Source: Halobellus sp. MBLA0158 | Lineage (GTDB): Archaea; Halobacteriota; Halobacteria; Halobacteriales; Haloferacaceae | DNA length: 64,000 nt | Direction: 5' to 3' | Assembly: GCF_041477585.1 (NCBI RefSeq) | Contig: NZ_JBGNYA010000001.1 | Location: 1,426,001 to 1,490,000, forward strand | Shown: positions 8,173 to 27,736 of the stretch, one piece after another | Position numbering within the stretch: position 1 is the stretch's first letter | Layout of the letters: each line of letters opens with the position of its first letter | The notes under the pieces: model-generated | Seen by the model: the letters and a program-made list of their open reading frames with translations, nothing else | Told to the model about the DNA's origin: nothing | The model's database searches: none | Made by a program: the position numbers and the translations under genes

Positions 8173-9369
8173 TCAGAACGCTCCAGTGACGATGTCCGCT
8201 ACGGCCTGCCGATCGAACAGTTCCTCGTCGCCGGTCACGTCGCCGAACGTCTCGGGGTAGAGCTGTTTGGCGGCCCGCTCTGTCAGGAAGAGGTTGTGAA
8301 TCGGGCCCTGATAGAGATACCCGCCGCGGTAGACCCGGCCGTTCTGGACGGCGCGCAGTTCGCTTCCGACCGGGTGATCCTCCATATACGCGAGGACGGT
8401 CTCGCGGAACTCCGTGGCGGACTTCCGTTCGTGGCCGCGCACGAGGATCACCTCGGGGTCGATCTCCAGGAGGTTCTCGTAGTCGAATTCGCCCCGGTTC
8501 GTCGTGCTGAGGTTCTCGATATCCGTGCCAGAGAGGGCGTCTGTCACGCCGAGGTCGCGCCACTGCTTCTTGCTGGTCCCGCGGTCGTTGAGGCGGTAGG
8601 GCGAGAACGTCTCCGGGGAGTTCGTCCCCTCGTAGGTCAGGAACACGTCCGGGCGCTCGTCGGCCGGGGGGAGCCGCTGCTGGATCGAAGCGATGAACTC
8701 GTCGTGCAGCGCCGCGAACGCCTCGTAGCGCTCCCGTTCTTGGAACAGCGTGGCCATCTTCTCGAAGGCCTCATAGAGCGTGTAGAACCGGTAGTCGTGC
8801 CAGTCGTCCGAGCGCCGGAAGATGAGGTTGCCGACGAACGGCCCGACGTTCTCGGCGATCTCGTCGACGTCGGACTGCTCCCAGTCGAACCAGTTTTTGA
8901 GCATCTCCGGGTCGTACAGGTGGACGTCGCTGTCGAGCGCGTAGAACTGCTCTTTGGTCCGCACCTCGGGGTGTTCCTCGATGCGGTCGCGGTCGACGCT
9001 CACGCCGGGGAGTTCGTCGTAGACGTAGGTGTAGTACCGATCCGCGCCGCCGATCCCCGTGATGCCGTCGGCCCGTCCGAGCGCGACCGCCATATCGGCG
9101 TAGTCGCCGCTGTAGGGGACCCACGTCTCGGGGACCGACTCGAACGTGACCTCGCCGACCGGCTCCATCGAGACCGAGTACGACCGGTCCTCGGCCGTCC
9201 GGGTCGCCGTCGTCGTCGATTCCGTCTCTGTTTCGGTACTGCTCTCGGTCGGCGTCGACTCGTCGCCGCCGGCGCAGCCGGCGAACAGTCCGCCGCCGAG
9301 GACCGCGCCGCCGTACTTGACGTACTCCCGCCGCGTCGGCCCGGCGAGGTCGTCCGTGTCTGGTGCCAT
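8173..9369 (-). CDS. ABC transporter substrate-binding lipoprotein, iron-siderophore type (FepB/BtuF fold)
   Basis: A 398-residue Tat-exported lipoprotein. The N terminus has TRREYVKYGG and the lipobox FAGC (Cys32), followed by a Ser/Thr/Glu-rich linker typical of haloarchaeal surface lipoproteins. The mature part has the Peripla_BP_2 pattern: ETWVPYSGDYADMAVALGRADGITGIGG, a central helix with EIAENVGPFVGNLIF, then VILVRGHERK and the C-terminal LFLTERAAKQLYPE. This family binds ferric siderophores, cobalamin or haem. Two DtxR/Idr-like palindromes overlap its promoter, supporting an iron role. The cognate permease and ATPase are not in the window. Confidence 0.88.
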   Translation of the reverse strand: MAPDTDDLAGPTRREYVKYGGAVLGGGLFAGCAGGDESTPTESSTETETESTTTATRTAEDRSYSVSMEPVGEVTFESVPETWVPYSGDYADMAVALGRADGITGIGGADRYYTYVYDELPGVSVDRDRIEEHPEVRTKEQFYALDSDVHLYDPEMLKNWFDWEQSDVDEIAENVGPFVGNLIFRRSDDWHDYRFYTLYEAFEKMATLFQERERYEAFAALHDEFIASIQQRLPPADERPDVFLTYEGTNSPETFSPYRLNDRGTSKKQWRDLGVTDALSGTDIENLSTTNRGEFDYENLLEIDPEVILVRGHERKSATEFRETVLAYMEDHPVGSELRAVQNGRVYRGGYLYQGPIHNLFLTERAAKQLYPETFGDVTGDEELFDRQAVADIVTGAF

Positions 9370-9373
9370 ACGA

Positions 9374-9389
9374 TTTAGGCTCGCCTAAA
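9374..9389. promoter_or_regulatory. DtxR/Idr-type iron-box palindrome, proximal site
   Basis: TTTAGGC-TC-GCCTAAA is a perfect 7-bp inverted repeat with a 2-nt centre, 5-20 bp upstream of the siderophore-binding-protein ATG. It resembles the TTAGGnTnnCCTAA-type sites of metal-dependent DtxR/IdeR repressors, whose haloarchaeal members include Idr1/Idr2. Binding here would block initiation when iron is plentiful. Confidence 0.7.
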
Positions 9390-9398
9390 CAAATAAAG
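9390..9398 (-). promoter_or_regulatory. TATA-like element of the siderophore-binding-protein gene
   Basis: On the minus strand CTTTATTTG lies about 21-29 bp before the ATG at 9369, between the two iron-box palindromes. The arrangement lets a repressor dimer on either side cover the promoter. Confidence 0.45.
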
Positions 9399-9409
9399 CG
9401 CTTTCGAAA

Positions 9410-9425
9410 TTTAGGCGAACCTAAA
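9410..9425. promoter_or_regulatory. DtxR/Idr-type iron-box palindrome, distal site
   Basis: TTTAGGC-GA-ACCTAAA matches the proximal site with one mismatched arm position. The two centres are 36 bp apart. The site also lies 76 bp upstream of the divergent Gfo/Idh/MocA gene and could influence it. Confidence 0.68.
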
Positions 9426-9500
9426 ATTGAAGCTCGCGCGACAGGAGTTACACCGACGTGTCGCCGGAGTTATTTCGACGCCCGCCGTCGGACGTCGGAT

Positions 9501-10598
9501 ATGGAGGACGCCCTCGCCGACTACCTCGATGAGTTCACGCGCCGCGACTGGCAGACGCTCGACCCCGACGACGTCGACGACCCCGTCCGGGTCGCGGTCG
9601 TCGGACTCGGATGGTTCGCCCGCGAGTGGGCGCTCCCGGGCATCGCGCGCTCGGCGTTCACCGAGGCGACCGTCGTCACCGACGTCGACGCGGACGCCGT
9701 CGAGACCGTCGCCGTCGAACACGACGTCCGCGGAGTCACGCCCGACGAACTCCGGTCCGGCGCCGTCGCCGACGAGTACGACGCGGTCTATGTCGCCACG
9801 CCGAACGCGACCCACCTGGTGTACGTGCGGGCCGCCGCCGAGCAGGGGAAGGCGATCCTCTGTGAGAAGCCACTGGAGGCGACGGTCGACCGCGCCCGGG
9901 AGCTCGTGGCCGCCTGCCGCGACGCCGACGTCCCGCTGATGGTCGGCTACCGGATGCAGACCGATCCCGCGGTGCGGCGGCTGCGGGACCTCCTAGAGGC
10001 GGGCTTCGCCGGCGACGTCGTCCACGTCCACGCGACGATGTCGCAGACGATGCTCGGCGAACTCGGCAGCGACCACGACCAGTGGCGGCTCGACCCCGAT
10101 CTCTCGGGCGGCTGTGCGCTGATGGACATCGGCGTCTACCCGCTGAACACGACCCGGTTCGTCCTCGGTTCGGACCCGGTTCGGGTGTCGGGGCGGACCC
10201 GGACGGAACACGAGGCGTTCGCGGGCGTCGACGAACACGCGACGTTCAGATTAGAGTACCCCGGCGGCGTCGACGCGATGTGTACGGTGAGCCAGAACGC
10301 CCAGCACGCCAGCCGGCTCGAAGTCACCGGGACCGACGCCCGATTGATCCTCGATCCGGCGTTCTACGAGCGCGAGGACCGGGGCTTCGCGGTCGTTCGC
10401 GAGGGGACCCGCGTCGACGTCGACTTCGACCAGGTCCACCAGATCGAAGAGGAGTTCGCCTACTTCGGGCACCAGCTGCTGGCAGAGGAACCGTTCTACC
10501 CGGACGGCGACCACGCGCTGGGCGATATGCGCGTCCTCGACGCCCTCTACGAGTCGGCCGAGATGGGCCGAGCGGTCGCTCTCGGCGACGACGCGTAG
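9501..10598 (+). CDS. Gfo/Idh/MocA family oxidoreductase (sugar 1-dehydrogenase-like)
   Basis: A 365-residue NAD(P)-dependent dehydrogenase. The N-terminal Rossmann domain has VAVVGLGWFAREWALPGIA, then AVYVATPNATH and the family signature ILCEKPLE carrying the catalytic Lys. The C-terminal domain has SGGCALMDIGVYPLNTTRFVLG. The N-terminal leader DYLDEFTRRDWQTLDPDD resembles haloarchaeal glucose/xylose dehydrogenases of this family. The ATG at 9501 is chosen because it begins that leader. It is divergent from the iron-binding-protein gene and convergent with an aldo/keto reductase. Likely oxidises an aldose or cyclitol; substrate not certain. Confidence 0.88.
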   Translation: MEDALADYLDEFTRRDWQTLDPDDVDDPVRVAVVGLGWFAREWALPGIARSAFTEATVVTDVDADAVETVAVEHDVRGVTPDELRSGAVADEYDAVYVATPNATHLVYVRAAAEQGKAILCEKPLEATVDRARELVAACRDADVPLMVGYRMQTDPAVRRLRDLLEAGFAGDVVHVHATMSQTMLGELGSDHDQWRLDPDLSGGCALMDIGVYPLNTTRFVLGSDPVRVSGRTRTEHEAFAGVDEHATFRLEYPGGVDAMCTVSQNAQHASRLEVTGTDARLILDPAFYEREDRGFAVVREGTRVDVDFDQVHQIEEEFAYFGHQLLAEEPFYPDGDHALGDMRVLDALYESAEMGRAVALGDDA

Positions 10599-12917: not shown

Positions 12918-13766
12918 TTAGCTGGTGTCTTCGACCACCGGATTCCGCAGCGTCCCGATCCCTTCGATCTCGACTTCGACCGTATCGCCCGGTTCGAGCA
13001 GTTCCGGCGGCTCTCGGAAGATACCGACGCCGCCCGGCGTCCCGGTGGAAATCACGTCACCCGGCCGGAGCGTCGTGATGCCGCTGATGTACTCGATCAG
13101 CTCCTCGACGCCGAAGATGAACTCCGCGGTGTTCGACGCTTGTTTCTGCTCGCCGTTGACCCGACATAATACCTCGACGCTTGATGGATCGAAGAAATGG
13201 TCAGGAACGAGAGTTGGACCCATCGGCGCGAACGTGTCGTAGCTCTTCCCGCGGAAGAACTGTTCGTCGGCGAACTGTGCGTCCCGCCCGCTGACGTCGT
13301 TGATGGCGGTGTAGCCAGCGACGTACTCGCGGGCGTTCGCCGCCGAGACGTCCTTCGCCGTCCGGCCGACGACGACGCCGAGTTCGACCTCGTAGTCCAC
13401 CTCCTCCAGTTCGGCGGGGTGGACGATGGGATCGGTCGGGTTCGTGACGGCCGTCCCCGCTTTTCCGAACAACAGCGGCCGCTCGGGGACGTCTTCGTCC
13501 TGTTCCTCGGCGTGGTCGTGGTAGTTGAGACCGACGCAGACGATCTTCCCCGGCCGCGGGACCGGCGCGAGTACCGACGCCTCGGCGGCGGGGATCGCGT
13601 CCTCGGAGGCCGCCTCGACGGCGTCTTCGACGACCCGGAGGAAGCCCGGATCGGTCAGCTGCTGGTAGGTCACTTCCTCGCGGAGCCCCGCGAGCGGGAC
13701 GATCGCCTCGTCGCGACGGACGCCCCACTGGGGGCTCCCGCCGGTGGTGTAGCGGACGAACTGCAT
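12918..13766 (-). CDS. Fumarylacetoacetate hydrolase (FAH) family protein, candidate 2,4-diketo-3-deoxy-acid-sugar hydrolase
   Basis: A 282-residue FAH-family enzyme. KIVCVGLNYHDHAEE opens the catalytic domain, followed by the metal-binding LEEVDYEVELGVVVGRT (E-x-E pattern), GYTAINDVSGRD, the substrate-contacting FFRGKSYDTFAPMGP, and the C-terminal RPGDVISTGTPGGVGIF. These proteins hydrolyse or dehydrate 2-keto acids using a divalent metal. In the diketo-hydrolase pathway of L-rhamnose, a FAH-family hydrolase cleaves 2,4-diketo-3-deoxy-L-rhamnonate to pyruvate and L-lactate, and the neighbouring genes fit that role. Alternative: a 2-keto-3-deoxy-pentonate dehydratase as in pentose pathways. 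Confidence 0.87.
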   Translation of the reverse strand: MQFVRYTTGGSPQWGVRRDEAIVPLAGLREEVTYQQLTDPGFLRVVEDAVEAASEDAIPAAEASVLAPVPRPGKIVCVGLNYHDHAEEQDEDVPERPLLFGKAGTAVTNPTDPIVHPAELEEVDYEVELGVVVGRTAKDVSAANAREYVAGYTAINDVSGRDAQFADEQFFRGKSYDTFAPMGPTLVPDHFFDPSSVEVLCRVNGEQKQASNTAEFIFGVEELIEYISGITTLRPGDVISTGTPGGVGIFREPPELLEPGDTVEVEIEGIGTLRNPVVEDTS

Positions 13767-13815
13767 CGTGTGCGGTTCGAAACGCGACTGACCTAACTGT
13801 TGTGCTCGCCGCCCG

Positions 13816-14574
13816 TCAGGAGTAGGTCAGGTTCACTTCGATGACGTTCGCGCTCCGGAGGATCTGTTCGATGATCTCGTCGGCGAACTCGTCGTCGCGC
13901 ATCCGGCTCTTGGGTTCGGAGACGCTCACCGCGGCGAGCGCGCGCCCGTTCTGGTCGGTGATCGGGGCCGCGACGCACCGCATTCCCTTCACCCGCTCCT
14001 CGTCGTCGAAGGCGTATCCGCGGTCGCGGACGCGCTCTAATTCCGCGAACAGCTCCTCCCTGTCGGTGACGGTGCGTTCCGTGACGGCCGGGAGCCCGTG
14101 CCGGTCGAGGATCGACTCGACCTCCTCTGTGGGCCGGAACGCCATGATCGACTTCCCGAGCGCCGTGGTCTGGAGCGGGACCCGCATCCCGGCGTGGGTG
14201 TCCAGTTGCACGGCGTCGGACCCTCGGGCCTTGTACAGGAACACCCCGAGGCCGTGCTCTTCGATCATCAGATTGGCGTGCTCGCCGGTCGTCTCGGCGA
14301 GCTCGTCGATCACCGACCGGGCGACGGTGAACACCTTCTGCCGGGACCGGGCCTGATTCCCCAGCTGCAGGAAGCGAGTGCCGACGTAGTACGTCTCGTC
14401 TTCCTTGACGAGGTACTCCTCGCGTTCGAGCGTCTGGAGGTGGTCGTAGACGGTGCTTGTCGGCCGGTCGAGATGCGCCGCCACCTCGGAGACGCCACCG
14501 CCGTCGATCTCGCGGAGCGCCTCGACGATCTCGAACGAGATCTTCGCCGCTTTGACCGGGACCGTCGTGCTCAT
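13816..14574 (-). CDS. IclR family transcriptional regulator of the sugar cluster
   Basis: A 252-residue IclR protein. The N-terminal wHTH has ISFEIVEALREIDGG, VSEVAAHLDRPTSTVYDHLQTLEREEYLV and YYVGTRFLQLG. The effector domain has VPLQTTALGKSIMAFRP, KGMRCVAAPITDQNG and AVSVSEPKSRMR. It sits inside the run of minus-strand sugar-catabolic genes, between the FAH enzyme (49 bp) and the LLM oxidoreductase (92 bp). It is the obvious candidate regulator of the pathway and importer. Haloarchaeal pentose pathways are activated by IclR-type XacR, which is a precedent for this arrangement. Confidence 0.92.
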   Translation of the reverse strand: MSTTVPVKAAKISFEIVEALREIDGGGVSEVAAHLDRPTSTVYDHLQTLEREEYLVKEDETYYVGTRFLQLGNQARSRQKVFTVARSVIDELAETTGEHANLMIEEHGLGVFLYKARGSDAVQLDTHAGMRVPLQTTALGKSIMAFRPTEEVESILDRHGLPAVTERTVTDREELFAELERVRDRGYAFDDEERVKGMRCVAAPITDQNGRALAAVSVSEPKSRMRDDEFADEIIEQILRSANVIEVNLTYS

Positions 14575-14666
14575 ACCTCACGCGTGGGGCGGCGGGATAA
14601 TAAGCGCTTCCGCTATGACCGGATAGCGATCCGGCAACGCAGTCCCTCGGATCGTCGACCCGCCGG

Positions 14667-15698
14667 CTACCGGAACTGCGGGATGACCTCGTCGGCGAAC
14701 AGCTCCATTCCGCTCGTGTCCGGGAAGTCGACGAACCAACACTGGAACTTCGTGACGCCGGCCTCGATCCGGCGCTCGATCGCTTCGGCGCACTCCTCGG
14801 GCGTCCCCATCACGAAGAACTCCCGGGCGTCTTCCTCGGTGCGGATCGGCGCCTGGTCCTGATACTCCTCTTCGAACTGGATCGGCGTCATCAGATCGAG
14901 CAGGCGGTCGAACTTCTCCTCGTCGCGCGTGCAGATGACGTGGCCGTCCCACGAGTACTCGATCTCGTCTGGGTCGCGGCCCACGGTCTCGCAGTGGTCT
15001 TCGATCACGCCGATCTTGTGTTCGAGCGTCTCCACGTCGCCGTTGAAGACGTCGGTGTTCCAGACGTCGGCGTGCTTGGCGACGAGCTTGAGCGTCACCT
15101 CCTCGCCCTGCCCGCCGACGAGGATGTCCGGATGCGGCTCTTGGACCGGCGCGGGCGCGCAGGGGGCGTCCTCAATCTGGTAGTGGTCGCCGTCGAAGCT
15201 CGCGCCGTCGCTTCCGGCCTCCCACATCCGCTTGATCAGGCGGATCGACTCGTCCAGCCGCATCAGCCGCTCGAAGCCGTCCCGGTACTCCCAGCCGTAC
15301 GCGTCGTACTCGGGCTCGTGCCAGCCGGCGCCCAGACCGAGTTCGAGCCGCCCGTCCGAGACGACGTCCAGGGTCGCCGCCATCTTGGCGACGAGCGCGG
15401 GATTCCGGTAGTCGTTACAGAGCACGAGCGAGCCGACGTTGACGTCCTCGGTGAACCCGGCGATCGCCGAGAGCAGCGTCCAGCACTCGTACTCGGCGCG
15501 GTCGCGGCCCAGTAACAAATGATCGGGCGCCCACACCGCATCGAAGCCGAGCTCTTCGGCCCGCTCGATCCCGGCGCGGGTCGTCTCCCAGTCGAGGCGC
15601 TCGTACTCGGGCGTGTCGCGGTGGACCGGCTCGGAGCCGTCTCCGGTCGGCGCGCCGGCGAAGACCGGCACGTTGTATTCGAAGCTGATCTCCGACAT
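14667..15698 (-). CDS. LLM class (luciferase-like, F420/flavin-dependent) oxidoreductase
   Basis: A 343-residue luciferase-like monooxygenase superfamily protein. Features are ISFEYNVPVF at the first strand, AEELGFDAVWAPDHLLLG, LSAIAGFTEDVNVGSLVLCNDYRNPALVAKMAATLDVVSDGRLELGLGAGWHEPEYDAYG split across the conserved core, and DILVGGQGEEVTLKLVAKHADVWN near the cofactor site. Haloarchaea make F420, and the LLM family includes F420-dependent sugar-phosphate and alcohol dehydrogenases. The gene starts 3 bp after the RhmD-like dehydratase stop, so it is translationally coupled to a sugar-acid pathway. A role as the sugar or lactol dehydrogenase is possible but unproven. Confidence 0.85.
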   Translation of the reverse strand: MSEISFEYNVPVFAGAPTGDGSEPVHRDTPEYERLDWETTRAGIERAEELGFDAVWAPDHLLLGRDRAEYECWTLLSAIAGFTEDVNVGSLVLCNDYRNPALVAKMAATLDVVSDGRLELGLGAGWHEPEYDAYGWEYRDGFERLMRLDESIRLIKRMWEAGSDGASFDGDHYQIEDAPCAPAPVQEPHPDILVGGQGEEVTLKLVAKHADVWNTDVFNGDVETLEHKIGVIEDHCETVGRDPDEIEYSWDGHVICTRDEEKFDRLLDLMTPIQFEEEYQDQAPIRTEEDAREFFVMGTPEECAEAIERRIEAGVTKFQCWFVDFPDTSGMELFADEVIPQFR

Positions 15699-15700
15699 CG

Positions 15701-16906
15701 TCACTCGACGGCGAAGTGTTCGACGGCCTCGCGATTGAGTTCGGCGCTCAGCCCCACGCCGTCGGGGAGGGGAATGACCCCGTCGTTCGCGTCCGGCGGG
15801 TGCTGGTAGATCGCGTCGGCGTACGTCGACTCCTTGTCCTCCTGCTGTTCTTTGTACCACTCGGGGATCGGGAAGTACTCCGCCATCGGCGCGTTCGTCG
15901 ATGCCGCGATGAAGTGGAGGTGCGGATTGGTCCCCGAGTGGGGGATCACCGGCACGTCGTGGGTGCTCGCAAGCGCGTCGATCCGCTGGAGCTCGGTCAG
16001 CCCCCCGCATCGATGCACGTCGGGCTGGAGGATGTCGACGGCCTCGCGTTCGAGGAGTTCCTTGTGTCCCCAGCGGGTGAATTCGTGTTCGCCCCCCGAG
16101 ATCGGCACGTCGGTCGACGCGCGGATCTCCGCGTACCCGTCGATGTCGTCGGGGATGACCGGCTCTTCGACCCACTTCAGGTCGTACTTCTCCAAACGCC
16201 CGAGCATCTTCTTGGCGTACCGGACGTTCCAGCCCATGTACACGTCGGCGGCGATCTCGATGTCGTGACCGACGGCCTCCCGGACGGTCCTGACGATCTC
16301 CTCGTTCCGCTCCATCCCCCGGCGCCCGGCCTCGGGGCCGTACTGGAAGCGGAGCTTCATCGCCTCGAACCCCTGTTCGACGTAGTCGAGGGCCTCCCGT
16401 TCGAGCGTTTCGAGGTCGACCGGGTGGAGGTTGCTCGCGTAGGCCGGAATCTCGTCGGTCACCGGGCCGCCCAGCAGTTCGTAGACCGGCTTTCCGGCCT
16501 CCTTTCCGGCGATGTCCCACAGCGCGAGGTCGACCGCGCTGATCGCCTCGACGGCCGCGCCCTTCCGGCCGAACGGGATCGTCGCCCGGTACATTATGTC
16601 CCACAGCCGCTCCCGCTCGCGCGGGTCCTCGCCGACGACGAGCTTCGACAGCGTCTCGTCGACGATGGTCTCGATCGCGCCCGTCGCCCAGTTGCCGTGG
16701 CCGACTCCCGTGATGCCCGCGTCGGTCTCGACCTCGACGACGACGTCGCCGACGGGCCCCATCCACTTCCGCCGGGCCTGGGGGTTGTCGCCCTCGGCGT
16801 TGTTGTACTCCTCGTACTTGCTCATCACCGTGACCAGCGGGAACTCGACGAACTCGCCCCACGAGTCGGTGCTGATCTTGGTCGCAGAGACGTCTGTGAT
16901 CTCCAT
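15701..16906 (-). CDS. rhmD: Enolase-superfamily acid-sugar dehydratase, L-rhamnonate dehydratase (RhmD)-like
   Basis: A 401-residue mandelate racemase/muconate-lactonising-enzyme family protein. VTVMSKYEEY near the N terminus, MKLRFQYGPEAGRRG in the barrel, and ILQPDVHRCGGLTELQRI resemble L-rhamnonate dehydratase. Metal ligands are Asp221 (AADVYMGW), Glu247/248 (WVEEP) and Glu273 (SGGEHEF). The general base candidate is His323 (IPHSG), as in RhmD-type dehydratases that lack the Lys-x-Lys pair. It removes water from a 6-deoxyhexonate to give the 2-keto-3-deoxy acid. It is coupled to the LLM oxidoreductase and followed upstream by a zinc dehydrogenase and the importer. L-Fuconate or a related acid is an alternative substrate. 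Confidence 0.85.
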   Translation of the reverse strand: MEITDVSATKISTDSWGEFVEFPLVTVMSKYEEYNNAEGDNPQARRKWMGPVGDVVVEVETDAGITGVGHGNWATGAIETIVDETLSKLVVGEDPRERERLWDIMYRATIPFGRKGAAVEAISAVDLALWDIAGKEAGKPVYELLGGPVTDEIPAYASNLHPVDLETLEREALDYVEQGFEAMKLRFQYGPEAGRRGMERNEEIVRTVREAVGHDIEIAADVYMGWNVRYAKKMLGRLEKYDLKWVEEPVIPDDIDGYAEIRASTDVPISGGEHEFTRWGHKELLEREAVDILQPDVHRCGGLTELQRIDALASTHDVPVIPHSGTNPHLHFIAASTNAPMAEYFPIPEWYKEQQEDKESTYADAIYQHPPDANDGVIPLPDGVGLSAELNREAVEHFAVE

Positions 16907-17076
16907 CGTGTATCAGTCGCGTGGTTCTCTCGGCGGGTATAAAATGCTTCTGTCGGTCCCGTGCGCGCCGAATCCCGGCGACTCCACTCGGTCCCTCGCT
17001 GACTTCCCGTTCGCTCCGCTCCGGGAATCCCGGCGATGCCTCTCCCCGCCGACCTCGTGGCCGGGCCGGCGCACGG

Positions 17077-18114
17077 TCAGTCCGCGAACTGGAAGATGGG
17101 TTTGCAGGTCTCGGAGCTCAGGAACGCCTCGAACGCCCGTTCCGGGTCGTCGACGCTGAACGAGGTGTCGACGATCTCGTCGACCGCGATCTCGCCGCGC
17201 TCCATCAGCCGGAGCGCCTGCTCGAAGTTCGTCCACGTCGAGCCGTAGGAGGTGTTGACATCGACCTCCCCGCGGACGACGTTCGTGAACGTCACCTCGC
17301 TCGCGCCGTTGGGGATCCCGACCATCACGACCTGCCCGCCCTTCCGCACGTGGTCGAGAGCGGTCCCGACGCCGGTGTGGTGGCCCGTCGAATCGAACAC
17401 GACGTCGAAGCCGACCCCGTCGGTGAACGACTCGGCGCGCGCGTCGAGGTCGTCCGACTGGGCGTTGATCGTCTCGATGCCGAGGTCGTCGAGGAGCGGC
17501 AGCCGATAGGCCGTGTCCTGATCGAGCCCCGAGACGACGACGTTCGCGCCCAGCGAGTCGGCGACGGCGGCCACGAGGACGCCGATGGGCCCCGGTCCCT
17601 CGACGAGGACGTTGTCGCCCGGCGTCGCCTCCGACTGCGTGAGCACGGCGCGGGTGGCGATGCTCGTCGGCTCGGTGATCGCGGCGTGGCGCAGCGGGAC
17701 CTCCTCGGGCACCCGGTGGAGGTGCTCGGGCGCGACGGCGACGTACTCGGCGTAGGCCCCGTCCCGGTGCATTCCCGTGATCGAGAAGTTCTGGCAGACG
17801 TTCGGCTGGCCGTTCTTGCACTGGAAGCACTGGCCGCAGTCGTGGATGGGCTCTTCGATGATCTTGTCGCCGGGCGCGAAGTCGTCGACGGCGCCCCCGA
17901 CTTCGACGACTTCGCCGGCGTACTCGTGGCCCATGATCCGCGGGATCGGGATCCACTCGTAGCCGCCGTCGTACTTGTAGGCGTGCGCGTCGCTCCCGCA
18001 GAGCCCCGCGGTGTGAACGCGCACGAGCACCTCGTCGGCGTCGATCGACGGGCGGTCTCGCTGCTGTGCTTCTACCTCTCGCGGTCCTGTCTGAACGATG
18101 GCTTTCATACTCAT
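17077..18114 (-). CDS. Zinc-dependent MDR-family alcohol/polyol dehydrogenase
   Basis: A 345-residue medium-chain dehydrogenase. Catalytic zinc residues are Cys39 (GLCGSD) and His63-Glu64 (MGHEYAG). The structural zinc site is Cys93, 96, 99 and 107 (CGQCFQCKNGQPNVC). The nucleotide-binding motif GPGPIGVLVAAVADSLGA follows, then FDSTGHHTGVGTAL. It resembles sorbitol, threonine and galactitol dehydrogenases. A second in-frame ATG at 18108 would drop two residues. In this cluster it could oxidise the C4 hydroxyl of the 2-keto-3-deoxy sugar acid to the 2,4-diketo acid, or oxidise the sugar itself. The 170 bp between it and the dehydratase hold only GC-rich non-coding sequence. Confidence 0.9.
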   Translation of the reverse strand: MSMKAIVQTGPREVEAQQRDRPSIDADEVLVRVHTAGLCGSDAHAYKYDGGYEWIPIPRIMGHEYAGEVVEVGGAVDDFAPGDKIIEEPIHDCGQCFQCKNGQPNVCQNFSITGMHRDGAYAEYVAVAPEHLHRVPEEVPLRHAAITEPTSIATRAVLTQSEATPGDNVLVEGPGPIGVLVAAVADSLGANVVVSGLDQDTAYRLPLLDDLGIETINAQSDDLDARAESFTDGVGFDVVFDSTGHHTGVGTALDHVRKGGQVVMVGIPNGASEVTFTNVVRGEVDVNTSYGSTWTNFEQALRLMERGEIAVDEIVDTSFSVDDPERAFEAFLSSETCKPIFQFAD

Positions 18115-18140
18115 ACGCTGTCGGAGTGTCTGCCGGTCGG

Positions 18141-19304
18141 TTACGCCTCGATGCTGTCTGTCGCCTGGTCGGCCGCCCGCTCGCTCACGAGGCGGCCCTT
18201 GAGGAGCTCCTCTGTCGCCGCGTCGAAGAGGTACACGTGCTCGGGCGCGATCGTGAGCGCGATCTCGTCGTCGGTCGCGAGCCCGTGGAAGTCGCCCACC
18301 TTCGCGGTCACGTCGCCGATCGCGGCCGTCCCGTGGACGATCGCCTCGGTCCCGACGGGCTCGACGATCCGGACGTCGGTGTCGAACGCCGGACCGCTCG
18401 AATCGCGGTTGCGGGCCTGATAGAGGTCCTGCGGGCGGAACCCGACGAGCACGTCCTCGGTCGTGATCTCCCGCTCGACGTATTCCTTCGGGATCTCGAA
18501 GGACAGTCCCTCGGAGTCGACCTGGTAGGCGTCGGCCGTCTCGCCGAGCCGCGCCTCGAAGAGGTTCATGTCGGGGCTCCCCACGAACTGGGCGACGAAC
18601 AGGTTCGCCGGCTCGTTGAACACCTCGTCCGGCGAGCCGAGCTGCTGGAGCTCGCCGTGGTTGAGCACCGCGATCCGGTCGGCGATGGTCATCGCCTCCT
18701 CCTGGTTGTGTGTGACGTACGCCGAGGTGATCCCGACCTCCGACTGGAGCTCGTCGATTTCGGTCCGCATCGTCTTGCGGAGCTTCGCGTCGAGGTTCGC
18801 GAGCGGCTCGTCGAACAGGAAGATGCGCGGCTCCCGGATGATGGCCCGACCCAGCGCGACCCGCTGCTTCTGCCCGCCGGAGAGCTGTGACGGCTTGTTG
18901 CCCAACAGCTCCTCGATCTCGAGCATCTCGGCCACTTCTCGCACCCGGTCTTTGATCTCGGAGTCGGTCATTCCGTTGTCCTCCCGGCGGAGGCCGAAGC
19001 CGAGGTTCTGCTCGACGGTCATGTGGGGATACAGCGCGAAGTCCTGGAAGACCATCGCGACGTCGCGGTTCCGCGCCTTCACGTCGTTGACGACGGTCCC
19101 GTCGAACCGGATCTCGCCTTCGGTCGGGTCCTCCAGCCCGCCGATCATCCGGAGCGTCGTCGTCTTCCCGCACCCGCTCGGCCCGAGGAGGACCAGGAAG
19201 TCGCCGTCCGGCACGTCGATGTTCAGGTCGTCGACGGCGACGACGCCGGATGCGTCCGGGTCGCCGAAGACCTTCGTGACACTATCTAGTTCGAGGTGTG
19301 TCAT
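18141..19304 (-). CDS. ABC transporter ATP-binding protein, CUT1 sugar type (UgpC/MsmK-like)
   Basis: A 387-residue ATPase. Walker A is GPSGCGKTT, the Q-loop is VFQDFALYPHMTV, the signature is LSGGQKQR, Walker B is IFLFDEPLANLDAKLR and the switch His is in YVTHNQEEA. A C-terminal TOBE/MalK-type regulatory domain (about residues 240-380) contains VLVGFRPQDLY. It energises uptake of the sugar recognised by the binding protein at 21317. It lies 26 bp downstream of the zinc dehydrogenase start on the same strand and 60 bp after the permeases, so importer and enzymes are co-transcribed or closely linked. Confidence 0.95.
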   Translation of the reverse strand: MTHLELDSVTKVFGDPDASGVVAVDDLNIDVPDGDFLVLLGPSGCGKTTTLRMIGGLEDPTEGEIRFDGTVVNDVKARNRDVAMVFQDFALYPHMTVEQNLGFGLRREDNGMTDSEIKDRVREVAEMLEIEELLGNKPSQLSGGQKQRVALGRAIIREPRIFLFDEPLANLDAKLRKTMRTEIDELQSEVGITSAYVTHNQEEAMTIADRIAVLNHGELQQLGSPDEVFNEPANLFVAQFVGSPDMNLFEARLGETADAYQVDSEGLSFEIPKEYVEREITTEDVLVGFRPQDLYQARNRDSSGPAFDTDVRIVEPVGTEAIVHGTAAIGDVTAKVGDFHGLATDDEIALTIAPEHVYLFDAATEELLKGRLVSERAADQATDSIEA

Positions 19305-19364
19305 TGGAAAGTGCTACCGTCCACCGCATCTTAAAGCTAGCGTCCGAGCCGGACGAGTGTCCGG

Positions 19365-20330
19365 CTATCCCTTGATGGCGCCGCCGGTGAGCCCCTGGAC
19401 GAAGTACCGCTGGATGTACGCGAGTCCGGCCAACACCGGGATCGAGACGATGATCGAGGCCGCCGCGACCACGTTCCACTGGGTGTTGAACCCCTGCACG
19501 AAGGTCAAGAGCCCGGGGGGAACGGTGTACTTCGCGTTGTCGAGGAGCGTCAGCGCGAAGACGAGCTCGTTCCACGCGAGCAGGAACGCGAAGATGAACG
19601 ACGCGATGAGCGAGTTGCGCGCCATCGGCACGAGCACGTACCAGAACGTCTCGAAGGCGCTACACTGGTCGATCCGCGAGGCCTCGATGATGGAGTCCGG
19701 GAAGTCGTCGAAGAAGCCCTTCATCAGCCAGACGACGAACGGCGCCGTCATCGCGCCGTAGATGAGGATCAGCGCGAGGTGGGTGTTGAACAGCCCGAGC
19801 GTCGAGATCAGTTCCCACTCGGGGACCATAATCGCGGTCCCGGGGAACATAAGCGACGCCAGGAGGAGGCTCATCAGGAGGTTCTTGCCCGGGAACTCCC
19901 GCCGCGAGAGCACGTAGGAGGCCCCGGTTCCGAGGACGACCGCGATGAGGCCGGCCCCGACGGCGACCTTGAGACTGTTGACGACGAGCCCCAGCAGGTC
20001 GATGTCGATCGCCGAGGTGACCGTGTATCCGAGGACGTCGTTCACGAGGTCGGAGTAGCCGCCGGCCTGGATCGACGACTCGACCACGAGCCGGAAGCCC
20101 TCCAGCGAGAAGTCCTGCGGGAACACCGTCGGCGGGATCCGCTGGATCTCGGCGGTCGTCTTGAACGCGGTCACGACCATCCAGTACAGCGGGAACAGGA
20201 CGAACACCGCGACGACGAGCGTCAGCAGCCCGATCGCGGCCTTCCGAACGTACGTTCCCGCCGCGGTGTCGTACAGCCACGAGCGGTTCTTGGCGAATTC
20301 CTCGGTCGACGTCGAGTCTGCTTGTGCCAT
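19365..20330 (-). CDS. ABC sugar transporter permease, MalG/UgpE-like
   Basis: A 321-residue inner-membrane subunit with a cytoplasmic N terminus and six predicted membrane helices. These include IGLLTLVVAVFVLFPLYWMV at the start, VLGTGASYVLSRREF, and LNTHLALILIYGAM variants in the core. The EAA-loop contact with the ATPase is visible as EASRIDQCSAFETFWYVLVP. The C terminus QRYFVQGLTGGAIKG is the MalG-type tail. Its ATG overlaps the stop of the upstream permease by one base, so the pair is translationally coupled. Confidence 0.94.
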   Translation of the reverse strand: MAQADSTSTEEFAKNRSWLYDTAAGTYVRKAAIGLLTLVVAVFVLFPLYWMVVTAFKTTAEIQRIPPTVFPQDFSLEGFRLVVESSIQAGGYSDLVNDVLGYTVTSAIDIDLLGLVVNSLKVAVGAGLIAVVLGTGASYVLSRREFPGKNLLMSLLLASLMFPGTAIMVPEWELISTLGLFNTHLALILIYGAMTAPFVVWLMKGFFDDFPDSIIEASRIDQCSAFETFWYVLVPMARNSLIASFIFAFLLAWNELVFALTLLDNAKYTVPPGLLTFVQGFNTQWNVVAAASIIVSIPVLAGLAYIQRYFVQGLTGGAIKG

Positions 20331-21256
20331 CAGTAGTCACCTCGGACTTTGTCGTAGAACTGGATGTAGTAGTACGAGAAGACGAGCAAGACGACGAACA
20401 GCATCACCGACAGGGCCGACGCGAAGCCGACCTCGAAGTCGATGAACGCCGCCCGGTAGATCATCACCGGAAGCGTACTGCTGGAGACCCCGGGGCCGCC
20501 TTTCGTCATCACCCACACCATCGAGAAGTTCCGCACGTTGTAGATGAGCATCAAAAGGAAGCCGATGGCGAGGTTGTACTTCATCATCGGGATGGTGATG
20601 TAGCGGAACCGCTCCCACGGCGTCGCGCCGTCCATCTTCGCCGCCTCGTAGAGGTGCTCGTCGATCCCCTGCAGGGAAGTCAGCGTCAGGAGCGCAAACA
20701 GCGGCGCGAGCCGCCAGATCATCCCGATGATCGGCGGCCACAGCGACAGGTCCGTCGACCCGAGCATCACGATGTACTCGTCGATGACGCCGAGCTGCAC
20801 GAGCAGTTCGTTGATGATGCCCTGGGAGCCGCCGAACATGAACTGCCAGATCGACGCGCCGACGACGCGGGGGAGCACCCACGGGATCAGGACGATCGCG
20901 CTCGCGACGCTCGTGTACGGGAGCTTCTCGTTGAGGAGCCAGCCCATCAGGAACCCGAGCACGATCGCGACCAGGCTGCCGACGGTCACCCACACGAACG
21001 TGTTCCAGAGCACCTGATGGATGTCGGGGTCGGTCCAGATCTCGACGTAGTTGGCGACGCCGACGAACTCCGCCTCCTCCGGGGACAGCAGGCTCTTCTC
21101 GAAGAAGCTCGAATAGATCGCCTGAGCGATCGGATAGAGGATGAACACCCCGACGAGCGCCATCACCGGGAGGATGGGCAGGTAGACCCGAACGCTCTCG
21201 GGAATCCGGTTGCTGGCCCGCTTGTACGACGACCGGGCGTTGTCTACGTAACTCAT
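20330..21256 (-). CDS. ABC sugar transporter permease, MalF/UgpA-like
   Basis: A 308-residue permease with six membrane helices. VYLPILPVMALVGVFILYPIAQAIYSSF forms the first helix. The EAA motif is YEAAKMDGATPWERFRYITIPMM. The last helix lies in the segment SALSVMLFVVLLVFSYYYIQFY. It belongs to the carbohydrate uptake transporter 1 group and pairs with the following MalG-like gene through an ATG/TGA overlap. The binding-protein gene is 60 bp upstream on the same strand. Confidence 0.94.
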   Translation of the reverse strand: MSYVDNARSSYKRASNRIPESVRVYLPILPVMALVGVFILYPIAQAIYSSFFEKSLLSPEEAEFVGVANYVEIWTDPDIHQVLWNTFVWVTVGSLVAIVLGFLMGWLLNEKLPYTSVASAIVLIPWVLPRVVGASIWQFMFGGSQGIINELLVQLGVIDEYIVMLGSTDLSLWPPIIGMIWRLAPLFALLTLTSLQGIDEHLYEAAKMDGATPWERFRYITIPMMKYNLAIGFLLMLIYNVRNFSMVWVMTKGGPGVSSSTLPVMIYRAAFIDFEVGFASALSVMLFVVLLVFSYYYIQFYDKVRGDY

Positions 21257-21316
21257 TGTTGATGAGGATCTGCCTGCGGCTTCACTACCAGCTATAAAAA
21301 GTATTTCGACGCCGGA

Positions 21317-22795
21317 TCAGGCGATCTGCTCGTCGACGACTTCCTGCACCGCGGAGTTGGCCTCGCTACACGCCTCTTCGGCGGTCGCGTTGCCGAGGAC
21401 GACCGGCTGGATGACCTGCGTGTTGATGATGCTCTGGATCTGGGCGATCCCCGAGAACGAGGGGAACCGCGAGGTCCGCGTGAACAGATTGTCGTTCTCG
21501 TAGAGCGTCAGCAGGTCGCCGAACTGGCTCTCGAACAGTTCGGATGGGTCCTCGAACGCGCTCTGGAGCGTCGGCACCCGACCGCGGATGCCCACGTCGT
21601 CCGCCTCGGAGTACGTCCACGGTGCGAGCCGATCGGGCTGATTCCACCAGCCGATGTAGTCGAAGGCGGCCGACCGCTCGGCGGAGCTCTCGGTTCCGTT
21701 GCCCATCATGAAGCCCTGGGCGTTCTGCAACAGGAGGTCCAGGGGCTGGAACTGTCCGGACGGGCTGTCCGGGAGCGGGGCCCGAGTGACCGTGTGGCCC
21801 TCGCCGTCGAGCCACGGCTGCGGGGCGCCGGTGGTCTGGTACACCGCGTTCGCGTGCGAGTACGTGATGAAGATGCCCGATTCTCCCTCCCGCAGGAGCC
21901 GGCCGGCGGCGATGTGGTTGTTCTCCGCCATCGAGTTGGGGAAGAGCCCGGCCTCGGCGATGTCCTGATAGAGCCTGACCGCGTCGACGAATCCGGGCTG
22001 GTCGACGGTCGCCTCCATCGTCTCGGGATCGAAGTACCGTCCCCCGTTGGCGTACACGAAGCCGATGAAGTACCCCGTCGTCAGGCCGAAGTCCGTCCCC
22101 GGCGCCGTGATCGCCGCCGAGACGTCGTCGATCTCCTGCATCTCCTCGCCCAGCTGGATCAGTTCGGGCCAGTTACGCGGCGGGCGATCGAAGCTCGTCT
22201 GTTCGAGGTAGTCCGTCCGGATGTCGATGAACGGACCGAGGTCGGCGTACCCGCCGGGGAGCCCCCACTGGTGCTCGCCGTCGGTGTCGCCCAGGCCCTC
22301 GTACATCATCGTATCGATGTTGGCCTGGATGAAGTGGCTGTTAATCTCTTCCAACTGGTCGGCGAACTCGGACTGGTCGAGCGGTTGGATCGCGTCCGCG
22401 CCGACGTAGTCGGGGATCTGCTGGCACTGGCCCGCCATCACGTCCGGGAGGTTGTCGTTGGCGGCGGCCGAGGCGATGATCTGATACTTCTGTCCCCACT
22501 CCTGGTGCTGGTAACTGACGCTGTGTGTGCCGTAGCTGTCGTAGTTGCCGCTGATGTACTCCCGCTCGGCCGGGATGCCGCCGAACAGCCAGAAGTCGAG
22601 GTTCTGCTGGCTCGATCCGCCGTCCCCGCCGGAGCCGCCGCCGTCGGAACCGCCGCTCCCGTCGGAGCCGCCGTTGCCGCCGCCACCGTTGCCGCCGCCC
22701 CCGCCACAGCCGGCGAGGCCCGCGGCCATCGCGGTTCCCAGTCCAGTCAGATACCGTCGCCTGCCGATCCCCGTCTTCGAACTGTCGTCTGTCAT
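21317..22795 (-). CDS. ABC transporter sugar-binding lipoprotein (CUT1, SBP_bac_1)
   Basis: A 492-residue extracellular solute-binding protein. The N terminus has a Tat twin arginine (GRRRYLTGLG) and the lipobox LAGC with Cys30. A strikingly Gly-rich linker with GGGGG runs, Ser and Asp follows, then the mature domain beginning NLDFWLFGGIPAE. Later parts typical of type 1 solute-binding proteins include NLPDVMAGQ and GESGIFITYSHANAVY. It is the first gene of the importer-dehydrogenase operon, divergent from the LutC gene across 141 bp. Ligand inferred to be a 6-deoxyhexose such as L-rhamnose, from the enzymes nearby. Confidence 0.93.
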   Translation of the reverse strand: MTDDSSKTGIGRRRYLTGLGTAMAAGLAGCGGGGGNGGGGNGGSDGSGGSDGGGSGGDGGSSQQNLDFWLFGGIPAEREYISGNYDSYGTHSVSYQHQEWGQKYQIIASAAANDNLPDVMAGQCQQIPDYVGADAIQPLDQSEFADQLEEINSHFIQANIDTMMYEGLGDTDGEHQWGLPGGYADLGPFIDIRTDYLEQTSFDRPPRNWPELIQLGEEMQEIDDVSAAITAPGTDFGLTTGYFIGFVYANGGRYFDPETMEATVDQPGFVDAVRLYQDIAEAGLFPNSMAENNHIAAGRLLREGESGIFITYSHANAVYQTTGAPQPWLDGEGHTVTRAPLPDSPSGQFQPLDLLLQNAQGFMMGNGTESSAERSAAFDYIGWWNQPDRLAPWTYSEADDVGIRGRVPTLQSAFEDPSELFESQFGDLLTLYENDNLFTRTSRFPSFSGIAQIQSIINTQVIQPVVLGNATAEEACSEANSAVQEVVDEQIA

Positions 22796-22936
22796 GGTAC
22801 GCTATTACAAATCAGACAGGTAGTGGATGATAAATGTACCGGTTTATCGGACCCCGTCTCCGTAACCGTCGACCGCTTCGGCGGGCACCGGCCAACCAAA
22901 AATACATAGCGCGGTAGTCCGATCGAGTAGATACCG
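22796..22936. promoter_or_regulatory. Divergent promoter region between sugar importer and lactate-utilisation genes
   Basis: A 141-bp non-coding region carrying promoters in both directions. A TATA-like AAAAATACATA at 22898-22908 lies about 29 bp before the LutC ATG, and TTGTAATAGC-like A/T sequence precedes the importer start on the other strand. The shared region suggests co-regulation of sugar uptake and lactate oxidation. I see no clear palindrome in it. Confidence 0.5.
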
Positions 22937-23458
22937 ATGTCAGCCTCTCGCGCGACTTTCGAGGCCGCCCTCGACGATCTCGGCGTGACGGTCTCAAGCA
23001 CGGTCCCGGCGGAGTTGCCCGCGCACCTCTCGGAGGTGGTGACGCCGCCGGCGGTCGGCGTGCCCCCCGACGGCGTGTTCGACCGACCGGAGTCGGCGCT
23101 CGCAGAGACGCCGATCGAGGCGGACCCGACGCCCGCCGCCGTCCGCGAGGCGGCCACGGGAGTCACGGGGGCCGACCTCGGCGTCGCCGACTACGGGTCG
23201 CTCGTGCTCACCCCGACCGGACAGGGGAGCGAACTGATCAGCCTGTTTCCCGATCGCCACGTCGCCGTCGTCCGGGCGTCGGACATTCTGGACGATATGG
23301 ACGCGGCGGTCGAGGCGATCGACGAACGGACAGCGGCGGCCGGAGGAAGTGCGATCATCGCCACGGGCCCGAGTGCGACCGCGGACATGGGCGCGCTCGT
23401 CCGGGGCGTCCACGGGCCCGAGTCGGTCCACGTCGTGATCGTCGAGGGGGACGACTGA
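22937..23458 (+). CDS. lutC: LUD domain protein, LutC-like lactate utilisation subunit
   Basis: A 173-residue LUD-domain protein. The conserved core GVTGADLGVADYGSLVLTPTGQGS, then SLFPDRHVAVVRAS and the C-terminal IIATGPSATADMGALVRGVHGPESVHVVIVEGDD segments (given here in part) match LutC/YkgG proteins. With LutA and LutB it oxidises L-lactate to pyruvate in Bacillus. It is followed after one base by the fused LutB-LutA gene, so the three functions are made from one transcript. In this locus it would consume lactate released by the predicted diketo-hydrolase pathway. Confidence 0.85.
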   Translation: MSASRATFEAALDDLGVTVSSTVPAELPAHLSEVVTPPAVGVPPDGVFDRPESALAETPIEADPTPAAVREAATGVTGADLGVADYGSLVLTPTGQGSELISLFPDRHVAVVRASDILDDMDAAVEAIDERTAAAGGSAIIATGPSATADMGALVRGVHGPESVHVVIVEGDD

Positions 23459-23459
23459 G

Positions 23460-25640: not shown

Positions 25641-25664
25641 CCTCGGCCCGGCTTCGTCCTGACC

Positions 25665-26537
25665 TCAGTCGGTCAGCCCGACGTGCCGCGCGAACGACTT
25701 TTCGGTGATCCACTCGCGGTCTTTCGCCGAAAGCCCGTCGACGTGTCGGAGCCACGTGTGCGTCTCCGGGTACGCGGTGATGTCGCTCACGTTCGGGTAG
25801 TCCGAGCCCCACACGACCCGCTCCCGGCCGAAGGTGTCGAGGAACCACCGGACGTGGTCGTGCATATCGGCGTAGGGGAACGCCGACTCGGATATGTGCG
25901 GGACCTCCGAGACCTTCACGGCGACCGAGTCGAACGCCGCCAGCTCCTCGAAGCGCGCGAACGTCCCGCGATCGGTCGGCGTCTTCGGGCCCGCGTGCGC
26001 GAAGTGATCGAACAGGTAGGACAGTTCGGGGTACGCCTCGACGAGTTCGATCGCCTGGTCCAGTTGGCGGTGATCACAGAGGATCTGGACCGCCGCGTCG
26101 GTCTCGACTGCCGCCTCCCAGAAGTCGGTCTCCTCGACGGCGTCGCGGAGCCACGTGACGTCCGGATCGAACGTCTCCCACATCCGGTCGTAGGGGCAGG
26201 CGGCGCCCAGGCGGACCCCGAGGATCCCGTCGGTCTCCATACACCTGCGGAGTTGCGCCGCCGCGTCGTCGGCGAAGGGATCGAGCATCACGATCCCGTA
26301 GAGCCGGTCGTGTTCGGCGGCGGCCCGGAGGGTGTACCAGTTGTCCGTCCAGTCGCAGATCGGATAGCCGACGACGACCGCCTCGTCGACGCCGGCGCGG
26401 TCCATATCGTCGAGGAGGCGGTCGGCGGTGTAGACCGTATGGACGTCGAATCCGTCGACCAGATCCAGGATCGGACCGTTCACCCACGGATGCGCCTCGC
26501 TGGCGGGTCCCCACGCGTGCGTGTGTGAATCGAGCAT
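25665..26537 (-). CDS. Amidohydrolase_2 family lactonase, candidate L-rhamnono/L-fucono-lactonase
   Basis: A 290-residue TIM-barrel amidohydrolase. The metal motif HTH is at residues 5-7 (MLDSHTHAWGP). Then come GVRLGAACPYDRMWE, LCDHRQLDQAIELVEAYPELSYLFDHFAHAG with barrel His residues, and the C-terminal VVWGSDYPN carrying the catalytic Asp. This subgroup includes L-rhamnono-1,4-lactonase and L-fucono-1,5-lactonase, which hydrolyse the lactone made by the aldose dehydrogenase. It is divergent from an RhaM-type mutarotase by 75 bp and convergent with the Lut fusion. The context supports the lactonase role over other amidohydrolase activities. Confidence 0.85.
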   Translation of the reverse strand: MLDSHTHAWGPASEAHPWVNGPILDLVDGFDVHTVYTADRLLDDMDRAGVDEAVVVGYPICDWTDNWYTLRAAAEHDRLYGIVMLDPFADDAAAQLRRCMETDGILGVRLGAACPYDRMWETFDPDVTWLRDAVEETDFWEAAVETDAAVQILCDHRQLDQAIELVEAYPELSYLFDHFAHAGPKTPTDRGTFARFEELAAFDSVAVKVSEVPHISESAFPYADMHDHVRWFLDTFGRERVVWGSDYPNVSDITAYPETHTWLRHVDGLSAKDREWITEKSFARHVGLTD

Positions 26538-26612
26538 ACCGGGCGAATAACCGTGTGAGTACTAAACTGTACCTGCGGAAGAATTATGAATCGCGCATCT
26601 GAGGACTGGGGT

Positions 26613-26915
26613 ATGCCGCGAATCGCGTTCCACCTCAGAATCCGGGACGGACAGCGAGAGGCGTACCGCGAGGAACACGAGGACGTCCCGGCGGCGCTGG
26701 AGTCGGCGTATCTCGACTCGGGGGCCGGCATCGAGACCTACAGCGTCTTCGAGAAGGACGGCCACGTGTTCGGATTCCTCGAAGTCGAAGACCCCGAGCG
26801 AATCAAGGAGGTAATGAGCGACAGCGACGCGCAAGCCGACTGGGACGAGGTGATGGATCCGATCCTCGTCGACGAGGACGACCCCTGGATGGACGAGGTC
26901 TATCGGATGGTCTGA
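26613..26915 (+). CDS. rhaM: L-rhamnose mutarotase (RhaM) family protein
   Basis: A 100-residue dimeric alpha-beta barrel protein. MPRIAFHLRIRDGQREAY and EEHEDVP show Tyr18 and His22 at the exact positions of the catalytic pair in E. coli RhaM. FLEVEDPERI and the C-terminal DDPWMDEVYRM keep the conserved Trp region. RhaM interconverts alpha and beta L-rhamnose for the dehydrogenase. The ATG at 26613 gives the family N terminus; an in-frame ATG at 26586 would add nine residues. It lies divergent from the lactonase and convergent with the SDR dehydrogenase (5-bp gap). It is the most specific pointer to a 6-deoxyhexose substrate. Confidence 0.85.
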   Translation: MPRIAFHLRIRDGQREAYREEHEDVPAALESAYLDSGAGIETYSVFEKDGHVFGFLEVEDPERIKEVMSDSDAQADWDEVMDPILVDEDDPWMDEVYRMV

Positions 26916-26920
26916 TCCGC

Positions 26921-27736
26921 TCAGGCCTTCAGGTAGCCGCCGTCGACGGCGATGGATTCGCCCGTGATCCACGAGCCCTCCTCGGAGAGCAGGAGGACCG
27001 CGACGTGTCCGATCTCGGCGGGTCGTCCCGGACGATCTAGGATGTGCGTGGACATCGCCTCCTCCAAGACCTCGTCGCTCGTGACGCCCTTCGCTTCGGC
27101 CTTCTCGTCGGCCCACTCTTCGACCATCGGGGTGTCGACGGTCCCCGGCTTGATCGCGTTGGCCGTGATGCCGTGCGCTTTGAGTTCTTTCGCGAGCACC
27201 GTCGTCAGCGCCAACACCGCGGCCTTCGAGGCGCCGTAGGCCCCCTGTCCGCTGAACGGCCGCTCGGCGCCGACCGAGGAGACGTTCACGATGCTCCCCT
27301 CGATCCCGTCGTCGATCATCTGTTCGGCCACCCGCTTCGAGACGAGGAACGGACCCTTCGCGTTGACGGCGAAGTGCCGATCCCACTCGGCTTCGCTCGT
27401 CTCCAAGAGCGGGACCGACCGCTGGATGCCGGCGTTGTTGACGAGCCCGTGGATCGGGCCCAGTTCGGCCGTCGCCGTCTCGATCGCCGCGTCGATGGCC
27501 TCCTGGTCCGTGACGTCGGTCTCGACCACAACGGCCTCGCACCCGAGGTCTCTGATCCGGGAGGCCGTCTCGGCTGCGGCCGCGCTGTCGACGTCGAGGA
27601 TGGTCACGTCGGCGCCCGAGCGCGCACAGCGGATGGCGATACCTCGGCCGATTCCCTGCGCGCCGCCGGTGACGACGATGTGGTGATCTGCCAGCCGCTC
27701 GTCGGTCTGCTCAGCTGATGACTGCGGTGCGGACAT
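26921..27736 (-). CDS. SDR family dehydrogenase of the sugar cluster (candidate L-rhamnose or keto-deoxy-rhamnonate dehydrogenase)
   Basis: A 271-residue classical SDR. Hallmarks are TGGAQGIGRG, LVNNAGIQR, INVSS-type NVSSVGAERPF with the catalytic Ser, AYGASK (Tyr-x3-Lys) and NAIKPGTVDTPM. The C terminus GESIAVDGGYLKA is FabG-like. The start at MSAPQSSAEQ is chosen; in-frame upstream residues are not SDR-like and span the promoter region. Convergent with rhaM. In L-rhamnose oxidation both the sugar 1-dehydrogenase and the keto-deoxy-rhamnonate 4-dehydrogenase can be SDR enzymes, so either step is possible. Confidence 0.9.
   Translation of the reverse strand: MSAPQSSAEQTDERLADHHIVVTGGAQGIGRGIAIRCARSGADVTILDVDSAAAAETASRIRDLGCEAVVVETDVTDQEAIDAAIETATAELGPIHGLVNNAGIQRSVPLLETSEAEWDRHFAVNAKGPFLVSKRVAEQMIDDGIEGSIVNVSSVGAERPFSGQGAYGASKAAVLALTTVLAKELKAHGITANAIKPGTVDTPMVEEWADEKAEAKGVTSDEVLEEAMSTHILDRPGRPAEIGHVAVLLLSEEGSWITGESIAVDGGYLKA

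Follow-up and report, generated by a model that had tools for sequence, protein, structure and literature searches.

Two of the elements that meet in this locus were already known: F420-dependent LLM-class sugar-phosphate dehydrogenases, and the L-rhamnose (rhc) diketo-hydrolase pathway of Haloferax, the latter reportedly characterised by Reinhardt and colleagues in 2019. The bacterial L-rhamnose diketo-hydrolase pathway (LRA1-6, Sphingomonas) has a comparable set of a 1-dehydrogenase, lactonase, dehydratase, 4-dehydrogenase and FAH hydrolase; its 1-dehydrogenase is an SDR and we know of no LLM-class enzyme in it. To our knowledge, the TIGR03560 (Rv1855c) family of LLM-class proteins has no characterised sugar function. 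Among other F420-dependent LLM enzymes, some form the lactone of glucose-6-phosphate by oxidation, and FSDs have very weak activity towards free D-xylose and mannose (PMC6279831). The characterised members of this FGD/FSD group (F420 glucose-6-phosphate and sugar-6-phosphate dehydrogenases) are actinobacterial.

Here we analysed a 64,000 nucleotide stretch of the Halobellus sp. MBLA0158 genome (the window), in which an LLM-class gene lies among genes resembling those of the Haloferax pathway. The window has RhcC, RhcD, RhcE and RhcF types, an IclR regulator and a CUT1 transporter in common with Haloferax, but its LLM has no rhc name in PGAP. The encoded protein shares the LLM TIM-barrel with FGD/FSD and would share pyranose C1 oxidation with F420, yet it falls outside TIGR03554/TIGR03557 and its proposed substrate is a non-phosphorylated 6-deoxyhexose. 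It scores just past the cut-off of TIGR03560, but differs from that family in being tied to a defined catabolic pathway.

Gene content of the locus

The region at 12918-27736 appears from its gene content to be a complete L-rhamnose diketo-hydrolase cluster, to which genes for L-lactate oxidation have been added, with mutarotase, lactonase, dehydratase, keto-deoxy-acid dehydrogenase and FAH hydrolase all clustered. The features are as follows (genome counts are out of 292 Halobacteria genomes, or the 36 of these that encode the LLM):

12918..13766, minus: FAH-family hydrolase, RhcF-type (2,4-diketo-3-deoxy-L-rhamnonate hydrolase); NF053535 is the best model, below cut-off; PGAP rhcF for orthologues; 33/36 genomes
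13816..14574, minus: IclR-family regulator, located where RhcR would be expected; PF01614/PF09339
14667..15698, minus: LLM-class oxidoreductase (TIGR03560), proposed F420-dependent L-rhamnose 1-dehydrogenase; ORF, Pfam, NCBIfam, AlphaFold
15701..16906, minus: dehydratase of the enolase superfamily, from the clade sister to RhcD (L-rhamnonate dehydratase); NCBIfam, identity, tree
17077..18114, minus: Zn-ADH, RhcE-type (keto-deoxy-rhamnonate dehydrogenase); PGAP rhcE for orthologues; Pfam; 35/36 genomes
18141..19304, minus: ABC transporter ATP-binding protein (MalK/UgpC type); NCBIfam, Pfam
19365..20330, minus: sugar ABC permease 2; ORF, orthologues annotated sugar permease
20330..21256, minus: sugar ABC permease 1; ORF, annotation of orthologues
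21317..22795, minus: extracellular sugar-binding protein; PF13416/PF01547
22937..23458, plus: LUD-domain protein (LutC-like), L-lactate oxidation; PF02589
23460..25640, plus: LUD/Fe-S/CCG protein (LutB/LdhH-like), L-lactate oxidation; PF02589 and Fe-S domains; NF045670 454 bits, below cut-off
25665..26537, minus: Amidohydrolase_2 lactonase, RhcC-type (L-rhamnono-1,4-lactonase); PF04909; PGAP rhcC for orthologue; 37/292 genomes
26613..26915, plus: L-rhamnose mutarotase RhaM; PF05336 53 bits against a cut-off of 23; 32/36 genomes
26921..27736, minus: SDR dehydrogenase that may be an NAD(P)-dependent L-rhamnose 1-dehydrogenase; exact start codon uncertain; PF13561; 16/292 genomes

NCBI names of the orthologues in named relatives are rhcC lactonase, rhcD dehydratase, rhcE keto-deoxy-rhamnonate dehydrogenase and rhcF diketo hydrolase, whilst the minus-strand genes at 18141-22795 make up a CUT1-type sugar transporter. 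RhcR is the IclR regulator described for the Haloferax rhamnose genes (PMC11519228), and deletion of a Haloferax LUD pair impaired growth on rhamnose (PMC8305020). A GH78 alpha-L-rhamnosidase adjoins 8 of 32 loci (domains checked for one); together with RhaM, these neighbours favour rhamnose over L-fucose, which was also considered, as the substrate. The host is haloarchaeal, with acidic proteins and with orthologues found in Halobacteria. A promoter and terminator scan with sigma-70 and intrinsic-terminator consensus sequences, which are ill suited to archaea, found nothing above chance.

Further genes were noted outside the cluster. A Gfo6-type D-xylose 1-dehydrogenase (9363-10598; NF041392, 455.6 against 350 bits) has an AKR beside it, and a PAS histidine kinase gene lies between this region and the rhamnose operon. 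Just past the SDR is a DapA-family aldolase (28679-29560), possibly a keto-deoxy-acid aldolase, and an extradiol-dioxygenase-like VOC protein (5316-6215; catechol 2,3-dioxygenase model below cut-off) adjoins a gene for a branched-chain-type substrate-binding protein.

The LLM protein and its cofactor

The LLM open-reading frame starts with ATG and encodes 343 amino acids, matching Pfam PF00296 (Bac_luciferase, 5e-55). Among the matches listed, TIGR03560 ("F420_Rv1855c") is the sole NCBIfam model above its cut-off, by a marginal 0.3 bit (231.7 against 231.4 bits; 232.9 bits in the genome search). FGD-type models were not reached (TIGR03557, 89.2 against 210 bits; TIGR03554, 53.5 against 420 bits), and neither were the FMN monooxygenase equivalogs SfnG (107/383 bits), SsuD (67/518) and RutA (67/498). 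The AlphaFold model, built on a 47-sequence alignment, is a TIM-barrel (pLDDT 90.8), whose Foldseek matches are a mix of FMN monooxygenases (SfnG, MsuD) and the F420 enzyme Adf, along with the unassigned Bacillus cereus 3rao; a PDB profile search mixed FMN and F420 enzymes likewise. Neither sequence nor fold thus discriminates between F420 and FMN, and both the distance below the FGD cut-offs and the presence of FMN monooxygenases among the structural matches are points against an F420 sugar dehydrogenase.

A link to F420 is nonetheless plausible, because the family is labelled F420-dependent, the genome encodes CofD (376.9 bits against a cut-off of 257) and Fno/NpdG (253 against 150), and close plasmid relatives are confined to two groups: in a collection of 72,556 plasmids, relatives at E<=1e-30 occurred only in haloarchaea and Actinobacteria. 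Both are F420-making lineages. Relatives in taxa lacking F420 reached only E ~1e-22 or worse among the matches listed.

Distribution and linkage to the dehydratase

LLM orthologues (79-91% identity, next best matches <50%) are present in 36 of 292 Halobacteria genomes and share a mean identity of 88% across genera. The dehydratase (>=73% identity) is present in the same 36 genomes and always adjacent, on the same strand, with 4-18 nt between match ends, stop codon included. Fisher's test of this co-occurrence gave p ~6e-47 with genomes taken as independent and ~2e-18 by genus, both optimistic owing to relatedness; the adjacency is far beyond chance. At the minus-strand junction in the window (...GAG TGA cg ATG...) 2 nt separate stop from start, so the sequence-only reading, which had the LLM starting 3 bp after the dehydratase stop, was correct in substance.

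The lactonase is found in the 36 LLM genomes plus one, whilst the RhcE-type ADH (all but one LLM genome, G225) and RhcF-type hydrolase are slightly less universal than LLM, lactonase and dehydratase; with the LLM as 1-dehydrogenase, this universal set would cover the first three steps. The SDR orthologue occurs in 16 genomes, all among those with LLM, and is absent from the other 20; for 17 of these, a search of the surrounding 10 kb likewise found no SDR. In compact clusters, such as those of Halostagnicola larsenii and Halobonum, mutarotase, lactonase, dehydratase, ADH and hydrolase are present and the LLM is the sole pathway oxidoreductase without a step. Within the window's own genus the rhamnose module is found in one of nine sampled genomes; its occurrence is thus patchy, and transfer between lineages is probable. 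In Haloarcula pelagica, PGAP names rhcC, rhcE and rhcF (~82-84% identity to Haloferax) but not the LLM, which is closer to Haloferax still (87-89%), and this naming gap suggests that no function had been assigned to it.

In a second collection, the dehydratase was adjacent in 37 of 39 haloarchaeal LLM loci, and the two exceptions (L132 and L143) have RhaM by the LLM. In one of these, Salinigranum salinum (L143), the LLM is still accompanied by RhaM and the lactonase, and the adjacent RhcD orthologue is gone. The gene order there (L143:10001-13579) is LLM, RhaM, another enolase-superfamily protein (36% identical) and an SDR.

A second LLM clade (45-48% identical) is found at L072:18984-28759, L076:18576-24760, L064 and L066 with an SDR, a RhaM-domain mutarotase and an SMP-30 lactonase; an AKR is present in some of these loci and a ribose-type transporter adjoins. 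If the window LLM does oxidise a free sugar, the proximity of this clade to sugar lactonase and mutarotase genes would point to a family of such dehydrogenases.

Exchange of the dehydratase beside a single LLM lineage

Of the NCBIfam models, L-rhamnonate dehydratase (NF011968) fits the window dehydratase best, with a score of 256 bits against a cut-off of 393, and the protein shares 73-76% identity with RhcD-named proteins. In the tree, the dehydratases fall into two fully supported clades, the RhcD-named and the window type, the window protein being placed in the sister clade outside the RhcD-named one. The two clades alternate next to a single LLM lineage (window 15701-16906 and its 36 orthologues): the dehydratase-clade label requires eight changes on the LLM tree, of which at least five swaps are forced by well-supported branches. 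The dehydratase was repeatedly replaced whilst the LLM remained beside it, or the reverse, and this recurrent swapping implies that the pairing is selected rather than merely inherited.

Proposed role of the LLM in rhamnose catabolism

Occurrence in the same 36 genomes, always adjacent to the dehydratase and within an L-rhamnose diketo-hydrolase cluster, places the LLM almost certainly in this catabolic pathway. The sequence-only reading had proposed a possible new role for F420 in sugar catabolism, with the LLM as a sugar or keto-acid dehydrogenase coupled to the dehydratase gene; membership of a sugar pathway is borne out, whilst the keto-acid option fares poorly as an RhcE-type enzyme is already there. 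The coupling stands in all 36 genomes, but the natural partners of the LLM include mutarotase and lactonase as well as the dehydratase, a set which argues for C1 oxidation of rhamnose over a keto-acid dehydrogenase. The LLM may well be the F420-dependent L-rhamnose 1-dehydrogenase, the first oxidoreductase of the haloarchaeal diketo-hydrolase pathway, a reading for which we infer the reaction, cofactor and electron recycling and to which we give slightly less than even odds.

In this scheme, RhaM would present L-rhamnopyranose to the LLM, which would oxidise the anomeric carbon to give L-rhamnonolactone and pass the hydride to F420. Lactonase and dehydratase would convert the lactone to 2-keto-3-deoxy-L-rhamnonate, the Zn-ADH would oxidise this at C4, the FAH hydrolase would split the product into pyruvate and L-lactate, and oxidation of the lactate would fall to the LUD proteins. 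Fno (NpdG) would reoxidise F420H2 to yield NADPH. The SDR, which alone is a candidate for an NAD(P)-dependent enzyme at this initial oxidation, would provide a second, NAD(P)-linked route in 16 of the 36 genomes, that of the window among them.

The SDR also bears on the case against a 1-dehydrogenase. All 16 SDR genomes retain the LLM, those of Haloferax included (species other than Haloferax volcanii), so the two are not simply interchangeable, and a non-orthologous 1-dehydrogenase may be encoded elsewhere in the 20 genomes without the SDR. The LLM could instead be an accessory oxidoreductase of rhamnose metabolism acting on another substrate (e.g. a side product, or a 6-deoxyhexose that is O-methylated or epimeric), whilst oxidation of L-rhamnose itself falls to the SDR or to some unrecognised dehydrogenase; each genome has 31-73 SDR candidates, among which such an enzyme could lie. 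We consider this unlikely, though it is a serious contender: the SDR orthologue is missing from over half of the LLM genomes, and the LLM is never absent where RhcD and RhcC types co-occur, which fits a core step better. The second oxidation, of 2-keto-3-deoxy-L-rhamnonate at C4 with F420, would be an alternative to the Zn-ADH, and the position of the LLM directly downstream of the dehydratase predicted to make this compound, along with the lack of an RhcE-type orthologue in G225, would suit it. The ADH is however found in every other LLM genome, Salinigranum salinum keeps its LLM with no RhcD orthologue beside it, and the sugar 1-dehydrogenase step would be left unfilled in 20 genomes, making such a role improbable.

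Somewhat less improbable, if still a poor prospect, is an FMNH2-dependent monooxygenase acting on a rhamnose derivative, by opening or demethylating it, with a flavin reductase encoded elsewhere. Profile and fold searches place SfnG, MsuD and 3rao among the closest solved structures, and the PGAP label of most orthologues is "flavin-dependent"; against this, the scores to the FMN monooxygenase models are under cut-off, no flavin reductase annotation was found in the named clusters inspected, all pathway steps are accounted for without an oxygenase, and relatives in F420-less bacteria are only distant among the matches listed. Neighbouring genes can also be preserved by tight linkage and translational coupling, and the LLM might be held in this way with no pathway role. 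The conservation across genera, perfect co-occurrence with the dehydratase and repeated replacement of the latter next to a retained LLM leave very little room for such a passenger, and the swapping on the LLM tree argues against simple hitch-hiking.

Implications for F420 in haloarchaea

The role of F420 in halophiles "remains undetermined" according to a 2021 review (PMC8498797), and haloarchaeal F420 has been called "currently enigmatic" (PMC8305020). With an LLM so tightly bound to the rhamnose pathway, growth of the genetically tractable Haloferax would provide a convenient phenotype and bring the F420 question within reach of direct tests. It is possible, although we lean towards doubting it, that the LLM is the first F420-dependent dehydrogenase with a free (non-phosphorylated) sugar as its physiological substrate, acting as an obligatory L-rhamnose 1-dehydrogenase that yields NADPH via Fno. 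If so, free-sugar oxidation would be added to F420 biochemistry, which could aid cheap F420H2 regeneration, and haloarchaeal F420 would gain its first defined catabolic role, in sugar metabolism.
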